DNA of 22,950 nt from a virus, in IMG/VR virus record IMGVR_UViG_3300042691_034751, positions 1 to 22,950 of that record. One strand, written 5' to 3'. Shown here in pieces: positions 3,063 to 6,817 of the stretch (position 1 is its first letter; the number at the start of each line of letters is the position of its first letter). The translations under genes and the position numbers were made by a program. The notes below the pieces were generated by a model. It saw only the letters and a list, made by a program, of their open reading frames with translations, had not been told where the DNA came from and ran no database searches.

Positions 3063-3311
3063 GCAAACTGCGGCGCTCCGTGAAGCGCCGTGTGTTTGCC
3101 AAGCCGTGCCGAGCCAAGCCATGCCCGGCCAGGCCTTGCCCCGCCGCGCCTTGCCAAGCCTCGCCGTGGCAAACTGCTGCACCTCCGAAGAGATGCAGTG
3201 TGTTTGCCATGCCATGCCATGCCGCGCCACGCCTAGCCCCGCACAGCCCCGCCACGCCGCGCCCAGCCTTGCCATGCCCGGCCGAGCCAGGACTTGCCAC
3301 GCCCTGCCATG
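3063..3311 (-). repeat. CNNGG pentamer array with two hairpins, unknown structured element
   Basis: On the transcribed strand there are 21 pentamers of form CNNGG (3311 down to 3207), a 38-nt hairpin (3206-3169), 14 more pentamers (3168-3099) and a 36-nt hairpin (3098-3063). Thirty-three of 35 units fit exactly; the two exceptions differ at one base each. The two N positions show 14 of 16 dinucleotides. Each hairpin has an outer GCAAAC/GTTTGC stem, an ACA/CA internal loop and an inner stem of 8-9 bp whose sequence differs between copies. A period of 5 is not a coding period, and all three frames are almost stop-free simply because CNNGG rarely makes stops. The element is intergenic inside the early operon. 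Function unknown. Confidence 0.9.
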
Positions 3312-3316
3312 TAAAA

Positions 3317-3877
3317 TCATTGCCATTCAACCGTGTAGCGGCCAAAGATTGGGCGAAATGTTCCAAGCCCCAAGATTCCACCTTGATCCAGCATTGTTTG
3401 GAGGCATGCTGCTGTGAGTAAGGTGTTTTCTTGGTGCGTGAGTTGGATTTTAATTTGCCAACCCGTCGGGAGCATCGGCCGCTCTTTAGGGTTAGGCACT
3501 CCATCCTTGACCCTTGCGACATGCTGTAAAATCTCGATCCTTGGGTCTTGGATTGTGTAGGGCGTGCCCTCCGCATCGAGGATTTGGGCGTTAAGCGGAT
3601 CCTCTCCAGTCGCCTCGATTGAGACAAAAGACATGACTCCAAGGGCAACATCACGCGCCTGCTTTCCGTAAAAACGCTTGGCCACCGATGGCGTGTTTTG
3701 TGCTGCCAGTAGCGAATAAAGGTTGAGGACGGGAATGACCAAATGGCCCGACGGTGTGGTGTAGAATTTTTCCATCACCGGAAGTTTCGTTTTGTTGTCT
3801 CCCGCGTAGCGGTCGAACATGATGGGCCGGATGCCGCGAAGCGTGGCCGTAAGTGTAGTTGTTTTGATTTCCTTCAT
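3317..3877 (-). CDS. Phage protein with a RAMP/Cas7-like C-terminal signature
   Basis: A 186-residue protein that begins MKEIKTTTLTATLRGIRPIMFDRYAGD and ends GILGLGTFRPIFGRYTVEW. The closing Gly-rich GLGxFRPxFGRY motif is shared with a family of phage proteins often seen in recombination and replication modules. It resembles the glycine-rich loop of RAMP-fold (Cas5/6/7-like) RNA-binding proteins. The RAMP link is pattern-based and unproven. The start ATG overlaps a TGA in the -1 frame of the preceding GIY-YIG gene. The pentamer array begins 5 nt after the stop, making this the closest protein partner candidate for that element. An alternative is a single-strand DNA-binding or annealing accessory. 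Confidence 0.8.
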   Translation of the reverse strand: MKEIKTTTLTATLRGIRPIMFDRYAGDNKTKLPVMEKFYTTPSGHLVIPVLNLYSLLAAQNTPSVAKRFYGKQARDVALGVMSFVSIEATGEDPLNAQILDAEGTPYTIQDPRIEILQHVARVKDGVPNPKERPMLPTGWQIKIQLTHQENTLLTAACLQTMLDQGGILGLGTFRPIFGRYTVEWQ

Positions 3878-4145
3878 ATTTTTTTATCGTTTCTAATGCC
3901 TCACTGCGTGAGAGTTTGAACCACTCGCCATTGCCGCTCGGTTTCACGAGCCGCAGGTGGGCAATGGCGAGGTGGATCCTCTTTTCCAAAATGGTCTTTT
4001 CTCCTGGCTTGGCCTCAACCCAGCCGAGGATTTCAAGCGCCCGAGGAGACCACACATGAGCCGCCCACAGCCTGTGCCGTAAGTCGTTCTCCGTGCAGCC
4101 GATCTTGCACTCACTTCCATTGTGAAAAAAATAAACCCGGTCCAT
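3651..4145 (-). CDS. GIY-YIG / T5orf172-like nuclease domain protein, possible -1 frameshift at its end
   Basis: Starting at the ATG 4143-4145 the protein reads MDRVYFFHNGSECKIGCTENDLRHRL, then a helical stretch with EKRIHLAIAHLRL and a GEWFKLSRSEALETI segment. This is the layout of T5orf172-type GIY-YIG domains (about 85-90 residues). The zero frame runs on to 3651 and would overlap the next gene by 227 bases with out-of-character, basic sequence. At the natural end lies a run of seven A in slippery phase (A AAA AAA at 3879-3885). A -1 slip there gives a TGA at 3874-3876 overlapping the next ATG, matching the ATGA coupling used elsewhere. So either programmed slippage or a one-base homopolymer change. 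The functional end is probably 3874. Confidence 0.7.
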   Translation of the reverse strand: MDRVYFFHNGSECKIGCTENDLRHRLWAAHVWSPRALEILGWVEAKPGEKTILEKRIHLAIAHLRLVKPSGNGEWFKLSRSEALETIKKYEGNQNNYTYGHASRHPAHHVRPLRGRQQNETSGDGKILHHTVGPFGHSRPQPLFATGSTKHAIGGQAFLRKAGA

Positions 4146-5811: not shown

Positions 5812-6743
5812 GCCGCCACCTCCATTTGTGCGGTTGCCTTAGCGATGAGCGCCTGCGGGCGGGTTTTGATTTGTGCCAGCAACTTCGGCGAGGCATTGCG
5901 CCAAGTCTCGCCCTCTTGGATTGAGCCGTTGCCGGTCAGAAAGGCATTCACCGCGTCCTCGTTGGCTTCCAGCAACTCGATCGCCGCCATCGTCTCGGCA
6001 CCGAGGATCTCGACGGCAGGCTCCGAGGTTTTGGGCGCAGGCTTGCCAAAGAGATGCGCCACCGATTCCCACTCCATCGGCAACTCCTCGGCGAGGCCCG
6101 ATCGTGTCTTGGCGTCGTAGGCCGCCGAGTGGGTTGTCAGGATGATGCGCTCCTTGCCCCCGATCCCCTTGGCCTTGCCGTTCTCCTGCGAGACGGCTTT
6201 CGTTTTGAACCGGAAAAACCAAAGCTCATCCGCCCACTCTTTCACCAGCGGAGAGGACTGCTTGGAGAGCTTGAGTTCGTAGCGGTCGTAAGCGGCGAGG
6301 ATGTCCGGCGGCTCGGTGCGCTGAACCTTCGAGTGCGCCAGGACAACGACATGCTTGCCGGCGTCGATGAGCGCATCCAAGGCGGTCAGGAACCGGCTGA
6401 CCTTTTCCGCCGCCATCACCCAGCCCTTGCCGAACCCGAAATCCTCGACGCTCTGCTTCTTGTTCGTAGCGAGGAGGTCTTCAACCGCCAACCGCTCCGC
6501 CCAGTCGGCGCTGTCGATGACGATCGTCTCGTAGTCCGTCCGGCTGGCTTCTTGGATGCACTCGCCGAGTTCTTTCCAAGTCGAGACCGCCACACGGTCA
6601 ACGGCGAGGTGGTTGCTGCCGCCCTCGATGTCGAGGAAGAGAGGATTTGGGAACTTGCTGGCGAAAGTCGTCTTACCGACGCTTTCGACCCCGTAAATGA
6701 CCACCCGCTGTGGTCGCTGTTGTTTTCCTTTAATTATTTTCAT
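5808..6743 (-). CDS. Sak4-like AAA/RecA-fold ATPase, phage recombination
   Basis: The start is taken at the ATG 6741-6743, giving 311 residues; upstream in-frame codons run through a C-rich non-coding spacer. Walker A is GVESVGKTT at about residues 18-26 and Walker B is TIVIDSADW at about 73-81, with VVVLAHSKV later as a sensor-like strand. This is the pattern of phage nucleotide-binding AAA_24/Sak4 proteins, RecA-core ATPases that work with SSB in single-strand annealing. The nearby nuclease and SSB-like gene fit that pathway. The C-terminal quarter (from about 230) is helical and poorly conserved in my memory. A plain RecA-like recombinase is less likely because of size. Confidence 0.88.
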   Translation of the reverse strand: MKIIKGKQQRPQRVVIYGVESVGKTTFASKFPNPLFLDIEGGSNHLAVDRVAVSTWKELGECIQEASRTDYETIVIDSADWAERLAVEDLLATNKKQSVEDFGFGKGWVMAAEKVSRFLTALDALIDAGKHVVVLAHSKVQRTEPPDILAAYDRYELKLSKQSSPLVKEWADELWFFRFKTKAVSQENGKAKGIGGKERIILTTHSAAYDAKTRSGLAEELPMEWESVAHLFGKPAPKTSEPAVEILGAETMAAIELLEANEDAVNAFLTGNGSIQEGETWRNASPKLLAQIKTRPQALIAKATAQMEVAA

Positions 6744-6817
6744 ATCACTCAATTTGTTGCGCGTTGTTTTGGATGCGCGCCCCCCCGTCACCTGCCCTCT
6801 CGGGCGATGCTGAAATT

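Follow-up and report, generated by a model that had tools for sequence, protein, structure and literature searches.

GGC/NN pentamer tracts beside a RAMP gene in an uncultivated phage as the probable guide RNAs of a VIPR system

The closest described counterpart of this locus is VIPR (Viral Interference Programmable Repeat), reported in a bioRxiv preprint of April 2026 (version 2, June 2026; PMC13142463). These phage-borne systems combine a RAMP protein, Vipr, with vrRNAs that carry 9-16 YNNGG repeats and a conserved structured 3' tail (PMC13142463). The letters GGY are fixed within each vrRNA and the letters NN are hypervariable, the latter pairing with double-stranded DNA with one base skipped between pairs (PMC13142463). 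In Escherichia phage SUSP1, Vipr and its vrRNA bind DNA in an NN-dependent manner and the target genes are repressed, with most of the targets predicted for the SUSP1 clade being found in a satellite phage (PMC13142463). The types are numbered I-VII, some of them carry predicted nucleases (PMC13142463), and the examples include SUSP1 itself and a Pseudomonas fulva prophage (PMC13142463; PDB 36pp).

The locus analysed here lies within the window, meaning the whole stretch of 22,950 nt, which comprises positions 1 to 22,950 of IMG/VR virus record IMGVR_UViG_3300042691_034751 (Table 1). We conclude, with a probability of about 0.95, that the element at 3063-3311 provides the guide RNAs of a VIPR system carried by the phage, a case built on the anatomy of the array, the structure of its tails, the homology and fold of Vipr, the linkage between gene and tracts, and the turnover of NN against the conservation of GGC. 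An earlier note on this sequence had known of no described phage element of this form; that statement is superseded by the April 2026 description (PMC13142463). The kind of system is hence already known, and the window represents an additional member, maybe with an accessory gene specific to its subclade.

On the minus strand, which is the one transcribed, 3063-3311 contains two GGC-NN tracts, each followed by its own hairpin tail, and the tracts make up 175 of the 249 bases. The earlier note had treated this interval as a single array: the repeat is real, but it is divided into tracts of 21 and 14 units, each capped by a tail. Its counts were reproduced on recount, with 33 of the 35 in-phase units being exact GGC, 103 of the 105 fixed positions being kept, and only CA and CC missing from the minus-strand NN pairs (corresponding to plus-strand TG and GG). 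The two inexact units, GTC and TGC, are one base off each. The pattern (GCCNN)4GCC matches 18 times in the window against 0.01 matches expected from shuffles, which excludes a chance origin of the array. As in published VIPR loci, where the intergenic regions concerned are long, the tracts occupy an intergenic region flanking vipr on the same strand, starting 11 nt (tract 1) and 154 nt (tract 2) from the end of its ORF. The second tract, with 13 NN, falls within the published range of 9-16 units, whereas the first, with 20 NN, is longer and includes two broken units. Rfam, PADLOC and NCBIfam returned no useful match, and neither did a tRNA scan of six array loci; tRNA-like tails had been suspected at two other loci (L004 and L015), and were unsupported by the tRNA scan.

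Table 1. Features of the VIPR-like locus, with positions in the window
Feature	Positions	Strand	Description
vrRNA 2 3' tail	3063..3100	-	hairpin GGCAAAC-ACA-(CGGCGCTTCACGGAGCGCCG)-CA-GTTTGC
vrRNA 2 repeat tract	3098..3165	-	14 GGC units, all exact (13 NN)
vrRNA 2 NN, 5'->3'			GA TT AA GC GG AA CT CG AT TT TC AC TT
Predicted guide 2 target, as read from vrRNA 2			GAnTTnAAnGCnGGnAAnCTnCGnATnTTnTCnACnTT
vrRNA 1 3' tail	3168..3208	-	two-part hairpin GGCAAAC-ACA-(CTGCATCTC TTCG GAGGTGCAG)-CA-GTTTGCC
vrRNA 1 repeat tract	3206..3308	-	21 in-phase GGC units (20 NN), 19 exact
vrRNA 1 NN, 5'->3'			AG GT AA CT TC CG AT AA TG GC GT GG TG GG TA GT GC AT AT AT
vipr	3317..3877	-	186-aa RAMP (Csm3/Cas7-like) protein, phrog_4652
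Candidate vap (accessory) gene	3651..4145	-	GIY-YIG-type MUG113/T5orf172 domain at 4145-3873 (Pfam PF13455, E 2.9e-9)

The genes on the minus strand run from a GIY-YIG-type ORF through the 186-aa vipr to the tracts, beyond which come an ORF of 66 aa and the replication module, with a DnaB helicase, a Sak4 annealing protein, an exonuclease, a Holliday resolvase and an integrase nearby. These phage genes, together with the IMG/VR record itself, place the system on a phage. A Pfam scan of the 186-aa protein gave no match, and tblastn with the window's Vipr alone found no phage record, its sequence being too diverged. Profiles reached further: a Vipr-family profile of 74 homologues (A2) matched PDB 36pp, 'SUSP1 Vipr protein', with E 1.4e-38, and an HMM built without SUSP1 recovered SUSP1 gp039 with E 9e-27, a protein whose gene is flanked by GGT/NN arrays. 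The structure predicted from the 74-sequence alignment had a pLDDT of 95.6, compared with 57.5 from 20 close sequences, and the model resembled Csm3 and the Cas7 of type VII systems, with a Foldseek E of 2e-6 and a Z of 12.5 (162 residues, rmsd 3.8). The product is predicted from this model to adopt the CRISPR Csm3/Cas7 (RAMP) fold, and corresponds to the published description of the VIPR protein in being a small single-RRM RAMP with a glycine-rich loop (GGILGLGTFRP, close to the C terminus) and a homologue of SUSP1 Vipr.

The element is not unique but common in viral contigs, at least 120 of which matched in a blind scan of IMG/VR with the DNA pattern (GCCNN)8GCC. Most of these contigs share a layout in which tracts, mostly of 8-18 units, often recur, separated by a spacer or tail that stays constant. 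Linkage to Vipr was assessed in 115 loci taken from the DNA pattern only, among the matches listed, each with at least one array of 8 units or more, and Vipr was detected with an iterated HMM seeded with the 186-aa protein and its relatives. A Vipr ORF was found in 84 of these 115 loci and in none of 212 control loci (1.8 Mb), and 309 of the 312 arrays in Vipr-bearing loci were on the vipr strand, at a median distance of 263 nt. Relatives reached through the protein likewise had tracts adjoining vipr. One pattern locus only (L029) had its tracts on the strand opposite the Vipr ORF, and 31 (such as L008, L018 and L074) had tracts with no Vipr ORF detected in the stretch examined; some of these tracts are near contig or locus ends, while others may be orphan vrRNAs or accompany a diverged Vipr. 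Array length also varied far beyond the published 9-16 units, with a near-continuous array of about 650 nt in L006, and tracts of 23-43 units in L058. In the cultured mycobacteriophage Quico (L275:2940-3912), GGC/NN tracts adjoin QUICO_57, which is annotated as hypothetical and is a Vipr homologue (E 1.2e-40). Vipr homologues were also seen in Paraburkholderia, Candidimonas, Planctomycetota and Methylococcaceae genomes (L267-L270), with L267 having no run of at least five GGY units near the gene.

The locus resembles VIPR in several respects: a protein of the same RAMP sequence family, GGY/NN pentamer tracts by its gene on the same strand, a structured 3' tail, carriage by a phage, and hypervariable NN. 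It departs from the SUSP1 system in using almost only GGC, where SUSP1 has mostly GGT, in having a simple two-part hairpin as its tail, and in having a GIY-YIG-type gene as its neighbour rather than gp038.

The pattern of selection was evident from 28 tail-anchored tracts, compared in 362 non-identical array pairs from relatives with Viprs 60-98% identical. The fixed GGC letters agreed between relatives at 97.9% of positions, whereas for the NN letters agreement was 29.1%, with composition alone predicting about 28%. Scaffold and protein have hence been retained while NN has completely turned over, which is the signature of a guide rather than of a decaying repeat. This outcome bears on the possibility of a neutrally drifting pentanucleotide microsatellite or mobile repeat, in favour of which one can cite true simple repeats that also fit the pattern (the CCGGG repeat of L013) and the sharing and recombination of blocks between some arrays (L123 and L124, below). 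Neutral decay would strike all five positions, rather than leaving three 98% conserved and two random across relatives, making this origin very improbable. The earlier note had likewise held that three positions were constrained and two free, naming equal decay at all five in relatives as the result that would count against it, and the comparison came out against decay; its arguments that a period of five cannot be a codon effect, and that selection acts on the nucleic acid, are upheld.

Structure is conserved in the tails, which were also found 3' of the tracts in relatives. Across 14 pairs, 98.2% of cells were paired, against 28-50% in slid controls, and four pairs had changed on both sides; the tails of VIPR-like tracts therefore covary. 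The tracts themselves behave differently, as the natural choice of NN folds worse than NN-shuffled tracts (mean z +0.79, s.e. 0.10, 113 arrays, in a fold that excludes G4), as expected for a single-stranded guide. These results can be set against the suggestion that GG every five bases forms a G-quadruplex, as the earlier note had proposed, or another self-structured RNA or DNA element. The 5-nt spacing of GG is compatible with it, as is the low minimum free energy of the whole region (z -4.7), although the latter is partly owed to the two tails. The suggestion leaves unexplained the fixed C after GG, the linkage to the adjacent RAMP gene and the covarying tails, while the weakened folding of natural tracts runs counter to self-structure, albeit in a calculation that excludes G4; we consider it highly implausible.

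The TRAP operator consists of NAG triplets every 5 nt, and the tracts resemble it in carrying fixed triplets at this spacing in RNA. The array might accordingly be a landing platform for a TRAP-like ring or filament regulator of the operon, with NN as a mere spacer, and its position between genes within an operon would suit such a role. However, the ten window proteins scanned with Pfam contain no TrpBP domain, no TRAP protein being found among them, and the neighbouring protein is instead a Cas7-like RAMP and Vipr homologue. Nor can a pure spacer account for two tail-capped tracts per locus, or for guide blocks that are common to relatives and recombined between them; unlike in TRAP operators, NN carries information and the tracts end in a conserved tail. 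A regulator platform is thus very improbable, if slightly less so than the other two alternatives. The earlier note had also envisaged a protein that grips an RNA every 5 nt, which is in essence what a Vipr RAMP protein would do.

The blocks in question are few, with a small number of tracts sharing units above a shuffled null. The clearest involves tract 1 of L123 (about 6575-6652), which scored 16 and 15 against the tracts of L124 (about 6575-6662 and 6701-6768), where the shuffled maximum was 11. It looks like a chimera, with its first nine units from L124 tract 1 and its last units from L124 tract 2. Similarly, the first tracts of the window (3206-3308), L129 and L145 are homologous guides with units in common, in the block CT..AT AA TG. 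Where the shared units differ, the differences correspond to mild amino-acid changes in an NNx codon frame (V/A/T, K/R and S/T), only a lead given the few positions involved; these guides may be tracking a variable target gene.

Searches for targets assumed the published skip rule or varied it. Six patterns drawn from the window's two guides, five of them 8-unit seeds and the sixth 10 units long, were scanned over IMG/VR with a 1-nt skip and produced no full-length target and nothing beyond chance, and 51 guides of the clade showed no excess over shuffles against 3.5 Mb of sequence with skips of 0-3. Units 1-8 of guide 2 matched at least 120 contigs, and nearly all of the 120 matches listed encoded (D/E)FKAG(K/N)LR in frame, the skipped letter being the wobble base of each codon, mostly in two SF2-helicase families. 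However, units 9-13 did not fit in those frames, the 10-unit pattern had 0 matches in IMG/VR, and units 6-13 matched other gene families, such that the SF2-helicase match of guide 2 (3098-3165) is a lead and not a target. Seeds from guide 1 gave 4, 12 and 8 matches without convincing extension; the best candidate, a desaturase-like frame in L385, was rejected, as its agreement at 29 of 40 letters is near chance. Pseudo-peptides of guide 1 were absent from phage records, and one Candidimonas guide had no target in 268 genomes of its family. As no target was found for the window's guides, we infer the targeting step by homology.

Processing, ribonucleoprotein formation, the reading of DNA with a 1-nt skip and the repression of targets are all expected by analogy with the published SUSP1 system. 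On this model, two vrRNAs would be transcribed from the minus strand, each comprising a GGC/NN tract and a hairpin tail. Vipr would multimerise along the tract, with one subunit per 5-nt step, contacting GGC as a scaffold and displaying NN to DNA. The concatenated NN letters, with one base skipped between pairs, would then recognise double-stranded DNA belonging to a rival phage or a satellite, and repress or damage it. Such a complex would share its protein fold and the logic of an RNA-guided filament with the backbone of class 1 CRISPR-Cas (Csm3 and type VII Cas7), but differs in that its guide letters, rather than running contiguously, come as pairs set within a 5-nt scaffold. Correspondingly, a tandem-repeat scan of the window found no CRISPR-like array, and a scan of ten window proteins found no significant match to other cas genes, the nearest being a Cas4-like PD-(D/E)XK match at E 0.14 only.

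In each of the 24 relatives the GIY-YIG-type gene lies next to vipr; outside this subclade it gave a single weak match. Its residues include a conserved Arg and a conserved Glu. In the window its ORF continues open into vipr for about 225 nt, using a different frame, and an open overlap of roughly 220-260 nt was present in all 14 relatives checked. A slippery-looking A-run (AAAAAAA) is present at the start of vipr in most relatives with the overlap. This neighbour is a candidate VIPR accessory gene, possibly specific to the subclade, and its conserved adjacency prompts the guess that it could serve as an accessory nuclease. A bolder proposal, which we regard as speculative and rather unlikely, is that the subclade represents a nuclease-armed, phage-borne VIPR, in which the GIY-YIG-type vap would cut the DNA that the vrRNA locates and recombination between tracts would generate new guides.

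A guide-RNA system known only from a 2026 preprint has been recovered independently, starting from unannotated DNA and searching with one pattern, and the linkage of repeat, tail and RAMP gene extends across scores of uncultivated phages. Close relatives in which GGC is fixed and NN is fully replaced provide a clean evolutionary test. The subclade with a GIY-YIG-type neighbour, together with the evidence for a reshuffling of guides by recombination, is useful for understanding how guide arrays outside CRISPR gain targets.
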